IMG/VR virus record: IMGVR_UViG_3300046009_000358
Span: 1-22,785 of that record
Direction: 5' to 3' (one strand)
Length of the DNA: 22,785 nt
Source: a virus
Part shown: positions 7,184 to 22,783 of the stretch, piece by piece
Layout of the letters: each line of letters opens with the position of its first letter
Numbering within the stretch: position 1 is the first letter of the stretch
Notes under the pieces: model-generated
What the model saw: the letters and a program-made list of their open reading frames with translations, nothing else
Databases searched by the model: none
What the model was told of the DNA's origin: nothing
Translations under genes and position numbers: made by a program

Positions 7184-7456
7184 CTATAGAGAAGTCTTAA
7201 TACGCAACATCTGACTTGTGTCTTGAACCCCGTCTTGGGTATCCCTGTACACATCACCCAATCTTAAGTTGGGTAAATCTACTTCTGTTGGTAAGGTATT
7301 AATGTTAATGTTTAACTGTGCAATATTGATAGGCTGAATAGCGTTTAAACGTTGAAAGAACAAATTCAACACATTCAACATCTGGCCCATATAAGCAGCG
7401 TCATACTCTGGCGGTGGAGCCGGTAGGCGAGGTGGAGCTTCTTGCATAAAACTCAT
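7184..7456 (-). CDS. Small conserved phage protein next to the gp10-like gene
   Basis: A protein of 90 residues. A Pro-rich start (MSFMQEAPPRLPAPPPEYD) is followed by a helix (AYMGQMLNVLNLFFQRLNAI) and then beta-type segments ending in LPTEVDLPNLRLGDVYRDT. The ATG overlaps the stop of the upstream gp10-like gene in an ATGA junction, so the two are probably translated together. I recall similar short proteins with a Pro-rich start and an LPTxxDLxNLRxGDVY ending beside the same large neighbour in uncultured marine phages. It may be a partner or cap of that neck/tail protein. No enzyme motif or membrane segment is present. The function is not established. Confidence 0.85.
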   Translation of the reverse strand: MSFMQEAPPRLPAPPPEYDAAYMGQMLNVLNLFFQRLNAIQPINIAQLNININTLPTEVDLPNLRLGDVYRDTQDGVQDTSQMLRIKTSL

Positions 7457-9387
7457 GAGTTACCCCTTCTGCCGTCTTGTTTAATGTCAATACGAGGTGC
7501 ACCCAACTGCCATGTAGTCCCAACTTGGGACGATTCCATCTGGAATATTAACTGCCTACCACGGACACGGATATACACTTGCCCCGTAAATTCCTCAATT
7601 GGAGCGGTGGCAATACGTTGAATTGATGCGTTACTTGTGCCTGCGGTTGAGCGTGGGTCAGTGGCTCCTGAGCCTGAGTTCTCAAACGGGATTAACGTCA
7701 TCGTGCATTGAGGCGTACCACTGTTAGAGCCTCGGAACGTCAAGTCAGGCAGAACACGCCAGATAAAACCAAAGTTATGACCGTCATCAATGTCAAACTC
7801 AGAAGAACTAATCAAAGCCGGAATGGCTGTAGTTGTGGCTGTAGAGTTATCGTCCACACCAAGCTCATGGTTGACCAAGTTATTGATGTACGTGGCCGCC
7901 AAGGGGTAGTTGCGTAAGCCTGAATCAAGCCACGCAGAACGCTCCATAGAACCGTAGTACCAGATGTCTTCTAGGTAATTGTAAATAACGTACCTATCTA
8001 CGGTATTACTACCAGCAGAACAGTAGAACCACCAAGCTTCGTTAAAGCCTTCGTTGGTTCCTGCAAACACTTGCAATGCCTGCGTCAGGTTAATGTCGCT
8101 AAAGATGAACTGACGGAGATCACAGCGCAGGGTCTGAACACGGCCATCGTATTTGTAGAACTTATCAATACCCATCCAATAGACCACGCCGGAAGCCAAA
8201 CAGACTGCGTTCGGGCCAATGATTGAGACATTGTCGCCAAGTAATTGAGAAGCCCAAACTACGGGTGGCCCTACGTATTGAAGCGAATAGATGGCGGAGT
8301 CCGTAAACACCACGATCTCTTGACGCGCTTGAATAGAGGTCACAATCTCAGAGCCGTGCGACAACTGTAAGCTACCTGCTTGGTTTGTCGGGGCAGGAGT
8401 CCAAACAAGAAAGTCTTCTTGATCCGACCAGCGAATCAGCATGGGGTTCAGGGTAGAAGAACTGTAATCATCACAGCCAAAACAGAATACAAAACGGCTT
8501 GCGTCTGATACAAATACAGACAGCACCACAGAAGGTACGTCTGCGTCTGCTCCCATAATGCTAGACACCAAAACTGCACGGGTGTTTAAACCGGTTGTTT
8601 GATCCCAATAATACAAGCCACCACCACGGGGGTTAATCAGCAAGTCTTCACCAAAGTTAGATTGACTCCACAACCGAATAGAAGATGTAGAAGATCCGCC
8701 TGTACCCCACAAGCCAGCACCCCAAGGGCCAGCACCCCAGCCTATAAGCGGGACTGCGTACTCAGGGCCAACGTTAATTTGATAAGCCGCAACAACAGAA
8801 GCACCGCCGCCGGGAGAGCCTGAAATAGCAGTAGCGTTTGGCGTAACTGAAATAACAATCGTATAGGTATTGGCATTAATAACCGTGACTTGAAATTCTT
8901 GATTTAAAACTGCCGCTGTAACGTTGGTTCCGCCACCGCCAATAGTTGTTGCTCCGCTAAAAGTTACAAAATCTCCCGTCACGCAACCATGAGCCGTGTC
9001 TGTAACCGTGACTGTAGTAGATGCCGTTAGCGCAAACGGGTTGTTGTTAATGGTAGGTGCAGGAACTACACGCAAGGGTGTGATGTCGTTATAAGACCCA
9101 CCGGATTCAATGTAAAACTTTAAGTTAGTGCCCACACCTACAAGGTTGGCTCCGGTTAGCGTGACCCAATTCCACAGTGAACGGCATACGCCCTCATAGG
9201 TTTCGTCGGATATGCGAACCCAACCACCAATCTTTTCAGGAGTTCCTGCGCGGAAACGAACTTTTTCAGATTCATACCATCCACCAGCCGCATTTGTGCC
9301 GGAATTTACAGACCCCAAAGCCTCGGATGCGTACCGTGTATTTTCTCGGTTAACTCCCGGACGAAATAGAATCTTTTTTAATGGCAT
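7453..9387 (-). CDS. Neck/tail structural protein, P22 gp10-like (packaged-DNA stabilisation type)
   Basis: A protein of 644 residues. The N-terminus has FRPGVNRENTRY (8-19) and WYESEKVRFRAGTPEKIGGW (37-56), a block I recognise from a large family in short-tailed aquatic phages often likened to P22 gp10 or a tail tubular protein. Residues 112-205 look like an inserted Thr/Val/Gly-rich beta domain, followed by a Trp/Gly loop (GWGAGPWGAGLWGTG, 216-230). The rest shows repeated Trp-rich beta segments that suit a propeller or tail hub. AAAGG lies six bases before the ATG. It follows the holin directly and overlaps the 90-aa gene. I am confident of a virion structural role; the gp10 assignment rests on remembered sequence resemblance. 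Confidence 0.8.
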   Translation of the reverse strand: MPLKKILFRPGVNRENTRYASEALGSVNSGTNAAGGWYESEKVRFRAGTPEKIGGWVRISDETYEGVCRSLWNWVTLTGANLVGVGTNLKFYIESGGSYNDITPLRVVPAPTINNNPFALTASTTVTVTDTAHGCVTGDFVTFSGATTIGGGGTNVTAAVLNQEFQVTVINANTYTIVISVTPNATAISGSPGGGASVVAAYQINVGPEYAVPLIGWGAGPWGAGLWGTGGSSTSSIRLWSQSNFGEDLLINPRGGGLYYWDQTTGLNTRAVLVSSIMGADADVPSVVLSVFVSDASRFVFCFGCDDYSSSTLNPMLIRWSDQEDFLVWTPAPTNQAGSLQLSHGSEIVTSIQARQEIVVFTDSAIYSLQYVGPPVVWASQLLGDNVSIIGPNAVCLASGVVYWMGIDKFYKYDGRVQTLRCDLRQFIFSDINLTQALQVFAGTNEGFNEAWWFYCSAGSNTVDRYVIYNYLEDIWYYGSMERSAWLDSGLRNYPLAATYINNLVNHELGVDDNSTATTTAIPALISSSEFDIDDGHNFGFIWRVLPDLTFRGSNSGTPQCTMTLIPFENSGSGATDPRSTAGTSNASIQRIATAPIEEFTGQVYIRVRGRQLIFQMESSQVGTTWQLGAPRIDIKQDGRRGNS

Positions 9388-17728: not shown

Positions 17729-18184
17729 TTAAGATATGCGCACGATGGCGCTGTTCGCATCGGCAGTTGGGAAAATGATTTGAAAAGTGTCGTTGGTTAC
17801 CGTTTTATCAGCACCAAAGTCCAACACAGCGACGGATTTGTCACCCTGCGTTGAGTTGTATATTAACGCACCACGAGCAGTAAAAGAGGCGTTAGTCCAG
17901 CTTGTATTTGAGAATGAAATAAAAGCTGTAGGTACTGCGCTTTGATTATTGCCTGACGTAGGGAATTGGCTGATAACTAGCGTATTGCCGCCGGTTGTGT
18001 ACCCATTGCCGTTTGCTACTTGGCCCGTCATGCCTGCCGTGTAAACGGTAGTGCTGGCACTTAGATCTGCTGCGGCTGTAAACAGTGCAATCTTGAATGT
18101 ATTTGGGGTTGTAGGGCCAAAGTTGTGGATAGCTTGAAGAAGCTCAACCTTGCAACTTGTGGTTACGGTTTGAAGAATGCTCAT
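17729..18184 (-). CDS. Conserved minor virion protein, related to its downstream neighbour
   Basis: A protein of 151 residues, starting with a short helix (VTTSCKVELLQAIHNF) and continuing as a beta sandwich-like pattern: FKIALFTAAADL (30-41), a Gly-rich loop, TAFISFSNTSWTNASFTARGALIYN (86-110) and LDFGADKTVTNDTFQIIFP (121-139). The start overlaps the adaptor gene's stop (ATGA). The last two blocks match, in the same order, blocks in the 194-aa protein that follows. The position directly after the adaptor suggests a neck or tail component. No known catalytic or binding motif is present. Confidence 0.82.
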   Translation of the reverse strand: MSILQTVTTSCKVELLQAIHNFGPTTPNTFKIALFTAAADLSASTTVYTAGMTGQVANGNGYTTGGNTLVISQFPTSGNNQSAVPTAFISFSNTSWTNASFTARGALIYNSTQGDKSVAVLDFGADKTVTNDTFQIIFPTADANSAIVRIS

Positions 18185-19020
18185 GATACTTGTACCCTAA
18201 CTTGACCGTCGCGGTAAGCGTCAGCCCGTTGTTTGCCGTCACCCAAGTTCTTGAGCAGGGCAATAGCCTGCACATAACGATCTTGAGCTACTTTCATCAT
18301 ATCGGCCTCTTGACGCATATAAACAAATGCTTCACAGATTGTCCCATATAACAGCGTGGAATCAAAGTTATCTCCAAGCCAAGTTGTACCAGCGGTAACA
18401 ATAGACTCGGGGTAATAGTAATAATGCAACTCAGCCATGTACGCTAAGTTAGGTGTCGGGCCAACAATGAACGTCAACTCATTATCATCCGCAGATTGCG
18501 GGCCAAAGATGGCGTAATGTTTTGGCTCACCACGGGTAGCAGTTTGGGGATACGCTTCACGGATGAAGTTCACATCTTTGTTTAGCAGGAACAAGAAGTC
18601 GCCTTGGAAGATGATAGTACCTGAGACTGTCCCTGTGTTTGCTTGCGTCAGATAAACCGTAGTTCCGGTTACTGCACGAACGTAAGTTCCAGACGGAATG
18701 TTTGCATTAGAGACCGACTGCCCTACAGCGATACCAGTAGCATCCGCTACAACAACCGTAAAAGCACCGGAAGTGCCTGTGGCTGTGGTTGTGATGACAG
18801 GATAGATTGACAGGCTGTATGGCGACAGGAAGTCATATGGACAAGCCAAGTACTTATTGCCGGTATTCAGTGAGCCTGTCACGTTCTTTCTCAAGTTGGC
18901 AATCTGCACCGTGTTATAGATGCGTTGCTCCGCCTGACGGATAAATGTATCCATGTCAGTCGTTGGGAAAGTGTTCTCGCAGTAATCAGTTACTGCGGTA
19001 ACAAGCTGGCTGTAATTCAT
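18181..19020 (-). CDS. Head-tail adaptor, SU10 adaptor-like
   Basis: A protein of 279 residues. The N-terminal helices NYSQLVTAVTDYCENTF and MDTFIRQAEQRIYNTVQIANLRK (23-45) and the C-terminal helices FDSTLLYGTICEAFVYMRQE and ALLKNLGDGKQRADAYRDGQ fit the helical-bundle adaptor that sits under the portal in SU10-like and similar short-tailed phages. Residues 76-139 form what looks like an inserted small beta domain (GIAVGQSVSNANIPSGTYVR), which is unusual inside a helical adaptor. The start overlaps the previous stop (ATGA). Its role would be to extend the portal channel and receive the tail. The family assignment is from recognition of the pattern, not from a search. Confidence 0.8.
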   Translation of the reverse strand: MNYSQLVTAVTDYCENTFPTTDMDTFIRQAEQRIYNTVQIANLRKNVTGSLNTGNKYLACPYDFLSPYSLSIYPVITTTATGTSGAFTVVVADATGIAVGQSVSNANIPSGTYVRAVTGTTVYLTQANTGTVSGTIIFQGDFLFLLNKDVNFIREAYPQTATRGEPKHYAIFGPQSADDNELTFIVGPTPNLAYMAELHYYYYPESIVTAGTTWLGDNFDSTLLYGTICEAFVYMRQEADMMKVAQDRYVQAIALLKNLGDGKQRADAYRDGQVRVQVS

Positions 19021-19280
19021 GCCATCGGGCCTCTAGACATAAAGCCTTTGGTAGCCGCACCTGCGCCACGCATTTTGATACCAGACGTTTTAGCGGCTGG
19101 TTGTGAGCGGCGATACACGTTGCCTACAGCCATATTGACTGTGCCAGCATCACTGTGGTCAGGGCCAGAACCGGGATTGTCAGTAGCCTTAACAACTTTA
19201 CCCGTCATGGTATGAGGCGTAGCGTAGACTTCGGCATCGCCAACTTCTTTGCCCATCATCTTTTTGCTAAATGTAGCCAT
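19017..19280 (-). CDS. Small basic protein with RGAGAATKG...RGPMA ending
   Basis: A protein of 87 residues, basic, with no predicted membrane segment. The C-terminus KMRGAGAATKGFMSRGPMA (69-87) resembles endings of small proteins found beside connector genes in many uncultured phages. The centre (HTMTGKVVKATDNPGSGPDH) is Gly/Pro-rich and probably extended. GAGG lies six bases before the ATG, and the stop overlaps the adaptor start (ATGA). It could be a small head-surface or neck protein; the role is unknown. Confidence 0.75.
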   Translation of the reverse strand: MATFSKKMMGKEVGDAEVYATPHTMTGKVVKATDNPGSGPDHSDAGTVNMAVGNVYRRSQPAAKTSGIKMRGAGAATKGFMSRGPMA

Positions 19281-19282
19281 AA

Positions 19283-19471
19283 TTAACCTCGTTTCTGTGC
19301 GGCAATCTTTGCCAAACCACGACCCATAGTCTTCATGTCAGAGTTGGTTTTACCCTTACCCTTACCTTTTCCGCCCATCATTTCTTTTTGGGAAGGGCCG
19401 CTAGTAGGGAAAACTTGAACATCAGTTTTACCCTTTTTTGCAATGCCATCGGCTGATTTTGTGTATGCCAT
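19283..19471 (-). CDS. Small basic Lys/Gly-rich protein with DGIAKKGKT motif
   Basis: A protein of 62 residues, very rich in Lys and Gly, with SADGIAKKGKTDVQVF (6-21), GGKGKGKGKT (33-42) and a helical basic tail. The first motif resembles the DG(C/I)A(T/S)KGKTKG motif at the C-termini of three proteins about 2 kb upstream in the operon. A strong AGGAG lies seven bases before the ATG. The composition suits an unstructured nucleic-acid-contacting or head-associated protein. No named family is recognised. Confidence 0.72.
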   Translation of the reverse strand: MAYTKSADGIAKKGKTDVQVFPTSGPSQKEMMGGKGKGKGKTNSDMKTMGRGLAKIAAQKRG

Positions 19472-19472
19472 A

Positions 19473-19865
19473 TTAAGCTCCTATCTGTATCGTTACTGTA
19501 CCAACTTGTGCAGCTAATGCCAAGTAGTTTGGCGTTAAAGCTGAATCAAAAAACCTAGATCCGCCAACCGGATTCCATCCCCACTGAATATCCCGTGAAC
19601 CACCTCCGGTGTACCCGTTAGCGTTTACACCAGAAGTTACATATGTTGTATCCCTACGTGGGTTACGCAAAGCTTGAGGATCATCCACCGGGAACGTGCC
19701 CAACATTAACTGCGGCTGGTCAGGATCCCAACATTCCGGACAGACTAACAGTTGATACTTACGCTGCTTAATGATCTCTGTCTTAAGCTTCTTAAGTTTA
19801 AACTGCTGTCCACAGCGATCACACATGGCAATCGCTATTTTGCCGGATGTAAACCTATTTCCCAT
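19473..19865 (-). CDS. Zinc-ribbon virion-region protein
   Basis: A protein of 130 residues. Two CxxC knuckles, CDRC (15-18) and CPEC (42-45), 23 residues apart, make a treble-clef or ribbon-type zinc site. The block CPECWDPDQPQLMLG (42-56) and DPQALRNPRRDTTY that follows are conserved, as I recall, in uncultured aquatic phages beside connector genes. The rest is Gly/Asn-rich with a beta tail. The start overlaps the connector stop as TAATG. The setting suggests a small structural or assembly protein rather than a transcription factor, though a regulatory role cannot be excluded from sequence alone. Confidence 0.8.
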   Translation of the reverse strand: MGNRFTSGKIAIAMCDRCGQQFKLKKLKTEIIKQRKYQLLVCPECWDPDQPQLMLGTFPVDDPQALRNPRRDTTYVTSGVNANGYTGGGSRDIQWGWNPVGGSRFFDSALTPNYLALAAQVGTVTIQIGA

Positions 19866-20791
19866 TACGTACCACCAATAAACTGCTGGCGCGGAACAAA
19901 CCTAACCGCAGCCTTCTCTCGGTCTTCACCGGCTGCAATCTCAAATGTTTCGTCGTAAATCTGTTTGAGCATCTGAATGCGAGGCATTAACTCAGGCACT
20001 TTAACGGCAATGTGGTACGCCAAACCTGCAACAACGCAGGGCAGGAAACGGAAGTTCATATCAGCTGTTTCTACACCACCGCCTGCATCTTGCACTCGGC
20101 GCAGTCTCCAATACACAAATTGATATGGAGTGCTGTTATCAGGAGTAGGCCATACGGTTACTGCGGGTAGTTGAGGCACAAACACCGCTGTACCTACGTT
20201 ATGAGAAACCGCAGTTGTATTGTTCTGACCACGGTACACACCACCTAGGGTATTACCTGTGACGTAGGTGTAATAGATGTCTTCGCTATCAAGACGGATA
20301 AAGCCTGCCCCAGCTAACCCAACCACCGAGTTAAGGGTGATCGTCGTTGCCGTGGAGGTGACGGCTGTTTCAACCACTGATGCAGTTGGATTAACTTCGC
20401 CCGAAAGGCGCTGAATCCAAACTTGGATGGGTCGGGCTTGGCTGAGTTTGTTTGGGATTGTGGCATACGTAGAAACACTAATACGTGTGATGGTTAAGTC
20501 AGCCTGCGTAGAAGACGTGTTCTGCCCCGTGCGGATAACATGCTCAAGCAAGTCAATGGTATCTGTAGGCAGAGCATACGTGGCAAGTCCCGGAGTTAGG
20601 TTGATTACACCCTGCTCCATAGTCCACATGTTGATGCCTTTGTTCTGCCACTCTATGGTCATTAGGTTCATAGACCTACGTGCTGTACGCAAGTCATAAC
20701 CCGAACGCATTTCCCGCCCAGCCCTCTCCCACGCTTCCTCGGCAATCTCCGTGAAGTCCATATTGAAGAGCGTTGAGCCGGTAGTGGTCAT
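19865..20791 (-). CDS. Head-tail connector / tail-tube-like protein (P22 gp4 or T7 gp11 type)
   Basis: A protein of 308 residues. The N-terminal helices AEEAWERAGREMRSGYDLRTARRSMN (17-42) and IEWQNKGINMW, then ATYALPTDTIDLLEHVIR (70-87), are characteristic of a connector family in short-tailed aquatic phages. The C-terminal helices (FRFLPCVVAGLAYHIAVKVPE; RIQMLKQIYDETFEIAAGEDRE) complete the bundle. Residues about 135-208 look like an inserted beta domain (DIYYTYVTGNTLGGVYRG), a unit seen in many phage proteins. The start overlaps the upstream stop (ATGA) and AGGA lies six bases ahead. It probably assembles as a ring below the portal. Which known connector is the closest relative is uncertain. 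Confidence 0.8.
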   Translation of the reverse strand: MTTTGSTLFNMDFTEIAEEAWERAGREMRSGYDLRTARRSMNLMTIEWQNKGINMWTMEQGVINLTPGLATYALPTDTIDLLEHVIRTGQNTSSTQADLTITRISVSTYATIPNKLSQARPIQVWIQRLSGEVNPTASVVETAVTSTATTITLNSVVGLAGAGFIRLDSEDIYYTYVTGNTLGGVYRGQNNTTAVSHNVGTAVFVPQLPAVTVWPTPDNSTPYQFVYWRLRRVQDAGGGVETADMNFRFLPCVVAGLAYHIAVKVPELMPRIQMLKQIYDETFEIAAGEDREKAAVRFVPRQQFIGGT

Positions 20792-21467: not shown

Positions 21468-21761
21468 TCAGCATTTTCCACCGTTACGCATGGTAATCAT
21501 TGTGCCTTTAGTTTTACCCTTGGTAGCACAACCATCAGCACGATTGGAAGCTGTGCCGCCTTTAGCCATTCTTTTTACAGATTTGCCATCAATATCTTGG
21601 GGCACAGGCATACCTTCACGAAACACTGTATCTTTAGGTGTAGACTTTTTGGGCGGTGGCATTTTAGGCGCAGGCTTTTTAACAGCCGGTACACCTTCAG
21701 GGTCTGTGGGTGGTTTACCCATTTCAGCAGTATAGATACCGCCTTCAGCGTATTTTTTCAT
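21468..21761 (-). CDS. Small protein with YAEGG start and DGCATKGKTKG...GGKC ending
   Basis: A protein of 97 residues. It begins MKKYAEGGIYTAEMGKPP, then a Pro/Lys-rich linker (about 17-45), and ends with NRADGCATKGKTKGTMITM...GGKC (73-97). The last 25 residues are shared with the next two proteins upstream. It is likely disordered in the middle. GGAAAG lies nine bases before the ATG. The conserved terminal Cys and the shared tail suggest a common attachment or packaging signal, but the function is unknown. Confidence 0.78.
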   Translation of the reverse strand: MKKYAEGGIYTAEMGKPPTDPEGVPAVKKPAPKMPPPKKSTPKDTVFREGMPVPQDIDGKSVKRMAKGGTASNRADGCATKGKTKGTMITMRNGGKC

Positions 21762-21764
21762 ACC

Positions 21765-22232
21765 TTAGCACTTTCCGCCGTAGTTCATTTTGACCATAGT
21801 GCCTTTGGTCTTGCCTTTAGTGGCACAACCATCCGCACGACTAGAGGCGGAAGAAACAGAGCCACCGCTCTTCATGCCTTTAGCACGAGTTTTTAGTAGT
21901 GCTTCTTCTTCAGGACGACGACCACTTCTAATATTTTTAGGGTCAATAAGTCCTTCGTCGTCAAAACGAGGGCCACTTCTAATATTAGATGGATCAATAA
22001 GCTTAGGAGAACTCGACTTAGGCTCTTTACGGCGTGTCAAACCTTGTTTAGCATTTAAGTAATCACGCAAATTGTCATAGCCTGATTTAGCTAATTCTTC
22101 TTTGGTAACAATGCCAGCTTTTTTAGGCTTTGGTGATGGCATAGCCGCAGGAGGTGCGCCACTATTGTCGTCTTCAGGCATAGTGCCTGAGCCGGGTTCA
22201 ATAAACTCGTAGTTATTGATGTTTGGCTTCAT
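21765..22232 (-). CDS. Acidic/basic mosaic small protein with DGCATKGKTKG...GGKC ending
   Basis: A protein of 155 residues. An acidic, Pro-rich start is followed by a helix GYDNLRDYLNAKQGLTRRKE (51-70), then a 17-residue repeat with LIDPSNIRSG (78-87) and LIDPKNIRSG (95-104), a charged helix, and the shared tail SRADGCATKGKTKGTMVKM...GGKC (131-155). AAGGA lies six bases before the ATG. The G-x-x-x-LRDYLN block is one I recall from proteins of uncultured aquatic phages. Its role is unknown; the head-proximal position suggests a minor head or packaged protein. Confidence 0.78.
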   Translation of the reverse strand: MKPNINNYEFIEPGSGTMPEDDNSGAPPAAMPSPKPKKAGIVTKEELAKSGYDNLRDYLNAKQGLTRRKEPKSSSPKLIDPSNIRSGPRFDDEGLIDPKNIRSGRRPEEEALLKTRAKGMKSGGSVSSASSRADGCATKGKTKGTMVKMNYGGKC

Positions 22233-22241
22233 GTTAATTCC

Positions 22242-22733
22242 TTAGCAGGCTCTGCCGCCCTTGTTCATGGCAATCATTGTGCCCTTGGTTTTACCTTTAG
22301 AGGCAATACCATCACGGCTTGATGAGGATTTAACTGAACCCATCTTAGATGGAGCCATACCGCCTTTGGAAAGCTTGGTCATTTCTGCGCCTTTGTGCAA
22401 ACGGCCTTCGTGTTTGTTTACAGCCTTTTGCATCATGGACTTGTCCATCTTGACATCTTTGTGAGCCATGCCACCCTTAGCCATTTTGCCCTTGCCGTCA
22501 GCAGCAAAGTCAGGAACCATTTTGCCGCCCTTGTTGACCATAGTCATACCACCGTCAGCATATCCACCCATGTTCATCTTTTTCATGTCGCCACCTTTAA
22601 AAAATTTACGGCCTTTATCAGCCTTTGAAAAATCTTTTCCCACGGACTGTGGGACTCCTGCTTTCTTGGCGAACGATGGGTTATGAGCCACCGCCTCCAT
22701 GAAATTGTGTTGCTTCTTACTTGTGCTCGGCAT
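22242..22733 (-). CDS. Met/Lys/Gly-rich protein with MPSTSKKQHNFM start and DGIASKGKTKG tail
   Basis: A protein of 163 residues. I chose the second of two adjacent ATGs (22733 rather than 22736) because AAAGG then has six-base spacing and MPSTSKKQHNFM is the form I recall for this N-terminal block. Residues 1-42 (QHNFMEAVAHNPSFAKKAGVP) form a compact helical motif common in phage proteins near capsid genes. After that the chain is a run of KGGM-type units (46-49, 86-89, 123-126) with YADGGM at 58-63 and about 18 Met in total. The tail is SRDGIASKGKTKGTMIAM...GGRAC. It is extremely basic and probably mostly disordered. It may coat or condense DNA or line the head; this is inference. Confidence 0.78.
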   Translation of the reverse strand: MPSTSKKQHNFMEAVAHNPSFAKKAGVPQSVGKDFSKADKGRKFFKGGDMKKMNMGGYADGGMTMVNKGGKMVPDFAADGKGKMAKGGMAHKDVKMDKSMMQKAVNKHEGRLHKGAEMTKLSKGGMAPSKMGSVKSSSSRDGIASKGKTKGTMIAMNKGGRAC

Positions 22734-22735
22734 CA

Positions 22736-22783
22736 TCAGCCTTTTTGAATAAGCTGGTCAATCTTTGCTTCAAGCTTGTTTTC
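22736..22783 (-). CDS. 3' end of an upstream gene, helical C-terminus
   Basis: Only the last 15 codons and the stop lie in the window, read ENKLEAKIDQLIQKG. The stop overlaps the next start (TGATG), as at other junctions here. The heptad-like Leu/Ile spacing suggests a coiled-coil end. The gene cannot be identified from this fragment. Confidence 0.5.
   Translation of the reverse strand, partial: ENKLEAKIDQLIQKG

Follow-up and report, generated by a model that had tools for sequence, protein, structure and literature searches.

A mostly C-terminal peptide shared by unrelated small proteins of aquatic podoviruses, a candidate virion-targeting tag

The capsid targeting sequence (CTS) of bacteriophage T4 is N-terminal and is cut off by the head protease. 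On the T4 internal proteins IPI-IPIII this short conserved terminus is the sole part common to diverse small proteins, and it places them in the head (PMC3012670). Encapsulin cargo-loading peptides (CLPs) are short, usually C-terminal and sometimes N-terminal, and are carried by several cargos encoded beside a shell gene of the HK97 type (PMC7355545). Here we describe a peptide of roughly 25 residues (the tag) at the C-termini of three adjacent proteins encoded in IMG/VR record IMGVR_UViG_3300046009_000358, a virus record of 22.8 kb (22,785 nucleotides) that was analyzed over its full length and is referred to below as the window.

The tag resembles the T4 CTS in being a conserved short terminus on otherwise unrelated small proteins, at least 98 non-redundant bodies carrying the one tag. 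It differs in being C-terminal in 295 of 296 copies (185 deduplicated loci), and the only family with the motif at its N-terminus is that of a 62-amino-acid (aa) window protein; no likeness of sequence to the CTS is claimed. As on encapsulin cargos, the tag is terminal, follows a flexible linker (GG.VSSAS), has a predicted local distance difference test (pLDDT) score of 47-57 and occurs on several proteins encoded near a capsid gene, whereas a CLP comprises about 10 residues that occupy a hydrophobic pocket of the shell and the tag comprises about 25, is basic and Gly-rich, and belongs to a phage. DUF6321 (PF19846) is likewise a C-terminal module of cyanophage and pelagiphage proteins, occurs in several PHROG families and is frequent in aquatic phages of the same kinds, but it is longer (about 80 aa) and unrelated to the tag in sequence. 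The PHROG 16759 module is a short module found on one of the three window proteins (164 aa) and on jumbo-phage virion proteins; unlike the tag, it is N-terminal, helical and present in cultured phages, and on the 164-aa protein it forms a second module beside the tag.

Three tailed window proteins and the anatomy of the tag

The open reading frames of 97, 155 and 164 aa are adjacent and end in near-copies of RADGCATKGKTKGTM..GGKC, with the fuller shared tail pattern SRADGCATKGKTKGTM(V/I)xMxxGG(K/R)xC (Table 1). A sequence-only reading of the window had placed three shared tails here, and they were confirmed on the minus strand at 21471-21545, 21768-21842 and 22245 to about 22320; its sizes of 97 and 155 aa stand, and its 163-aa protein measures 164 aa when begun at the first ATG of an MM start. 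Its statement that the rest of each protein is unrelated was upheld: pairwise full-length BLAST aligned essentially the tails only (E 2e-11, 6e-8 and 1.5e-9), and we take the bodies to be unrelated because the proteins minus their tails gave best matches of E >= 0.3 and nothing significant. The tail DNA is similar too, as had been noted, with 75% identity between the two closest tails and 13 of their 19 differences at third codon positions. Chance origin of the three tails was ruled out with a shuffled-DNA control, in which a degenerate core pattern that matches three times in the window gave a mean of 0.00 matches over 100 dinucleotide shuffles. A Pfam scan of the three proteins returned no domain match, PF19846 included.

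Table 1. Positions of the tagged proteins and of neighboring features in the window
Feature	Coordinates	Strand	Tag or terminus	Remarks
97-aa tagged protein	21468..21761	-	NRADGCATKGKTKGTMITMRNGGKC, encoded by 21471-21545	Body homologues in 12 loci
155-aa tagged protein	21765..22232	-	SRADGCATKGKTKGTMVKMNYGGKC, encoded by 21768-21842	39 of 39 viral-contig body homologues end in a long or short tag
164-aa tagged protein	22242..22736	-	Long tag SRDGIASKGKTKGTMIAMNKGGRAC, encoded by about 22245-22319	163 aa from second ATG
N-terminal three-helix module of the 164-aa protein (residues 2-46)	22599..22733	-		PHROG 16759; pLDDT 85-92
62-aa protein	19283..19471	-	Tag core SADGIAKKGKT at N-terminus (MAYTKSADGIAKKGKT, 19424-19471)	
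87-aa protein	19017..19280	-	Tag-like C-terminus RGAGAATKGFMSRGPMA (19020-19070)	Kept in 18 of 18 family members
308-aa SU10-type head-tail adaptor	19865..20791	-		Pfam PF24175; synteny in 21 loci; downstream landmark of the tagged cluster
130-aa zinc-ribbon-like protein between the two adaptors	19473..19865	-		Family in 21 of 21 loci; zinc-ribbon matches weak only
279-aa second SU10-type adaptor	18181..19020	-		Pfam PF24175, phrog_2941
644-aa protein	7453..9387	-		Extra stretch at 103-191

Tagged loci were collected by scanning IMG/VR with the DNA pattern for D-G-x-A-x-x-G-x-T-x-G-x-M, for which about one chance match is expected by our rough estimate. The scan gave about 245 motif copies in at least 120 loci, the three window copies included. 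The tag consists of a Gly/Ser/Ala-rich linker (GG.VSSAS) and a core of R-A-D-G-(I/C)-A-x-(K/R)-G-K-T-(K/R)-G-(K/R/T)-M-(V/I), and basic residues occupy several of its variable columns. Among the loci listed, 150 of the approximately 245 copies are of a short form that stops exactly three residues past the core (consensus SSASKRADGIAQRGKTRGRMV-stop), and most of the remainder are of a long form that extends about 7-18 residues beyond it and typically ends in ..GGKxC. Since the search pattern fixes several residues by design, the count was redone with a tag profile on loci found via the capsid protein only. These capsid-anchored loci hold 97 copies, 87 of which lie within 30 aa of a C-terminus, most of the others being N-terminal; their core residues are conserved at D 96%, G 100%, A 87%, G 100%, K 94%, T 100% and G 99%. 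N-terminal copies were found in 15 loci, and the DGIAKKGKT that the sequence-only reading had pointed out in the 62-aa protein is one at the N-terminus.

It had also been proposed that the tail is a metal or thiol contact, in which case its task would be to present the terminal Cys. Among 52 sequences of the 164-aa family, no fewer than 90% keep this residue (C164) and all keep the GG before it, but near invariance of the Cys is confined to that family. The last residue of 160 short tags is V in 86, I in 20 and C in just 28, the internal tag position that can hold Cys does so in 30-34% of copies and is otherwise mostly Ile or Val, and a 155-aa orthologue with a 97%-identical body has GKIC in place of GTMVKMNYGGKC. 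As a general role, a Cys contact is thus unsupported, and we regard it as highly improbable.

In an AlphaFold model of the 164-aa protein, built from 52 aligned sequences, residues 5-42 form a helical module with high confidence, and the tag region, where pLDDT falls to the 47-57 given above, has no confidently predicted structure. A Walker A (P-loop) motif was considered and rejected: GCATKGKT fits GxxxxGK(T/S), but the Lys is not invariant (GHT and GRT variants occur), and the modeled C-terminus that holds the tag is unstructured and of low confidence, not a P-loop fold. No chain among solved protein structures matches the tag.

Every member of the family of the 87-aa protein (the window member and 17 others, from L132-L151) has the C-terminal ending RG.G.A.KG, in most cases RGTGAATKG...RGPMA. 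As the spacing of this ending is similar to that of the tag (R-x-x-G-x-A-x-K-G), the latter may be one special case within a wider C-terminal motif.

Distribution, gene neighborhood and tagged bodies

Among the matches listed, core genes of one phage group are present in 124 of 127 tagged loci; the other three are two 1-kb pieces of longer contigs that carry core genes and one likely chimera. Except for this chimera, the tagged loci represent a single podovirus group, capsid kin of Planktothrix phage Pag-Yong1 and pelagiphage HTVC023P. Many loci are fragmentary, and genes were called by a simple script. The same pattern applied to 85,000 bacterial and archaeal genomes yielded 8 loci, of which 7 have C-terminal tags and lie on metagenome-assembled contigs and 1 is a chance match. 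An apparent tag on an acyltransferase of a Patulibacter metagenome-assembled genome (L130) was discarded; a phage-like block of about 120 bases (143-262) sits there in high-GC bacterial sequence, and the fusion is likely false, an assembly chimera.

By capsid protein, the nearest cultured kin are Pag-Yong1 and near-identical records (71%), HTVC023P (65%), DSL-LC04 (63%) and CRP-901/902 (55%). Only Pag-Yong1 among them has a tagged protein (a single one, UMO75986.1), which ends in RDGCAKRGRTKGRFI and is encoded between capsid and adaptor. A tblastn search of cultured phages with the bare tag gave no match and missed this divergent copy, which was found by reading the genome; as a control, a local search of the same kind in the tagged loci recovered over 200 matches. 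Six tag peptides did not occur in the literature searched, and Pfam and PHROGs scans of the tagged proteins returned no model recurring on the tag itself. The tag looks like an undescribed feature of a large phage group from water, most members of which are uncultivated.

Genes in these loci are ordered terL, portal, a GroES-like gene, about three head genes, major capsid protein, tagged genes, SU10-type adaptor, zinc-ribbon-like gene, small genes and second adaptor. From the capsid gene to the tagged genes the median distance is 2.6 kb, and from these to the first adaptor it is 0.9 kb. The whole stretch from capsid to adaptor is present in 37 loci; 33 of these carry one to five strict tags and the remaining 4 carry degenerate tags such as SARADGAAVRGKTKTKYC. 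For the major capsid protein, matches to Phage_capsid_4 and Mu gpT were obtained, and no solved structure was matched by sequence. Scattered internal copies, set beforehand against a sorting role, were not what the survey returned: copies are almost all C-terminal and their genes lie between capsid and adaptor.

This placement bears on the idea that the tail is a signal recognized outside the virion, by a host or phage protease, a chaperone or a membrane site, so that tagged proteins would work within the infected cell, for instance by countering host functions. The C-terminal position and the hydrophobic last residue of most short tags do recall C-terminal recognition tags, and the bodies are diverse and lineage-specific. 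A free end directly after the core is not required, however, because long tags add at least 7 residues there; 15 copies are N-terminal; and in every complete locus the genes lie within the structural cluster next to the capsid gene. We consider such a signal quite unlikely.

Tagged proteins are small (median 128 aa) and basic (whole-protein median isoelectric point, pI, 10.2). Their bodies have a median pI of 9.9 and 89% are predicted to be disordered; for the core proteins of these loci the values are 5.1 and 14%. Disorder was called by a composition-based charge-hydropathy rule and not by a trained predictor. Among 100 tagged proteins scanned, a known Pfam domain was found in a single genuine member, in which DUF6321 lies upstream of the tag. 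The small genes of the cluster are mosaics of short modules.

Several further observations concern this region. DUF6321 is itself a C-terminal module, ending at or near the last position in eight different PHROG families, and in tagged phages the tag can be appended after it (L126:1404-1727, L133:8866-9120). Small proteins of the cluster repeatedly contain a segment PDLTGDGK(V/I)T.AD(I/V)LKGRGV, similar to the calcium loop of an EF-hand and in some cases located directly before the tag (L141:13386-13652, L049, L056, L011). The GroES-like gene (L139:3450-3857 and its family) lies between the portal and capsid genes throughout the phage group. Both window adaptors seem to hold an insert, at residues of about 130-213 in the first and 75-142 in the second; these match tail-fiber or other PHROG families, and that of the first is seemingly absent from several cultured relatives.

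Constraint on the peptide and agreement within genomes

Comparison of tags within one genome shows differences at 55% of third codon positions, as against about 25% of positions one and two. Where two tags share a residue that has a four-fold site, this site differs in 55% of comparisons within genomes and 59% between them. It is the peptide that is conserved and not the DNA, since third-position and four-fold sites vary strongly, and the copies are mostly not recent duplicates; because synonymous sites are nearly saturated, the likeness cannot be due solely to recent duplication of DNA or to gene conversion. The same data bear on whether the tail is mainly a recombination cassette, that is, shared DNA at gene ends that lets neighbors swap their variable parts and encodes a peptide of little function of its own. 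Exchange was in fact seen, a 155-aa body of 97% identity carrying a short tag in L243 and the long tag in the window, and the modular mosaics of the small genes are in keeping with it. Against this, the DNA is not conserved and the core residues are fixed at 87-100%, so that the codon-position data already disfavor a cassette as the main role, and we hold it to be very unlikely.

Variable tag residues coincide more often within a genome than across genomes, even at near-saturated codon difference. For short tags, with near-identical loci removed, within-genome agreement was 0.605 against 0.409 +/- 0.027 by permutation (0/2000). At position 4 (Q/T/V, largely uncharged) the agreement was 0.59 against an expected 0.24. 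Agreement was not seen among long tags, a small sample of 16 pairs. Such agreement is in keeping with a single partner, specific to the genome, that its tags have in common.

A nucleic-acid-binding peptide is another candidate, in which K, R and G residues would bind phage DNA and the tagged proteins would condense or coat the genome, any entry into the head being via DNA and not via a protein receptor. The strongly basic character of tag and bodies speaks for it, as do the basic residues in variable tag columns. The most invariant residues, however, mostly offer no charged contacts (G, G and T at 100%, A at 87%) and include an acidic D at 96%; nor does general DNA binding demand an exact residue order, a terminal position or agreement at the largely uncharged position 4. 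DNA binding as the tail's role is in our view unlikely.

Proposed targeting to the virion

The observed sequence, terminal position, number of bodies, gene location, protein-level constraint and within-genome agreement would be best explained by a mode of action like that of the T4 CTS or an encapsulin CLP, unrelated to either in sequence and with membership of neither class claimed. We favor the reading that the tail is a linear targeting peptide which recruits a changing assortment of small proteins to the virion, and assign it a probability of about 0.5 because the pattern of the tag matches that of a targeting peptide, as encapsulin CLPs show. The tag would sit at a flexible protein end and be swapped between genes as a cassette. 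During virion assembly it would be bound by one partner common to the tagged proteins, which we place most probably on the side of the capsid, scaffold or connector; as a rule, one to three small, basic and disordered proteins, unrelated to each other, would enter the particle of a given phage in this way. Partner binding, virion membership of the tagged proteins and the capsid side of the partner are what we infer from the observations. The sequence-only suggestion of a sorting, attachment or packaging tag is to this extent borne out in part, being in line with C-terminal position in 295 of 296 copies, about 98 bodies, constraint on the protein and location between capsid and adaptor.

The PHROG 16759 module of the 164-aa protein lends indirect support to a role of this protein in the virion, for the module also opens CBB_322 of jumbo phage CBB, a protein detected in CBB particles by mass spectrometry with 30 peptides (PMC5259590 Table 4). 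This short helical N-terminal module is also present in jumbo-phage virion structural proteins such as CBB_322 and in phiKZ gp165.1.

Several points weigh against virion targeting. The CBB evidence bears on the N-terminal module, and the tag is not concerned. No tagged protein has been demonstrated in a virion, the literature searched yielding neither virion proteins of Pag-Yong1 nor a virion proteome of any tagged phage. HTVC023P, HTVC027P, DSL-LC04 and CRP-902, cultured phages of the same capsid family, are without the tag, so that a capsid of this family does not in itself depend on it. The within-genome agreement could also stem from duplications that took place long ago in a lineage. A co-divergence search pointed to no receptor, tag divergence being weakly correlated with every core protein (highest rho 0.19).

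More tentatively, the system may be a phage counterpart of encapsulin cargo loading, in which a putative capsid docking site for one peptide would load a lineage-specific, changing set of small basic proteins for delivery into the host with the DNA. If the tag loads heads, one 25-residue motif would flag virion-delivered proteins in a widespread, nearly uncultured group of aquatic phages, with at least 98 kinds of such candidate proteins in this sample, almost all without a known domain. The tag would then also serve as a transferable label for loading a phage capsid, and would lead directly to the docking site there.
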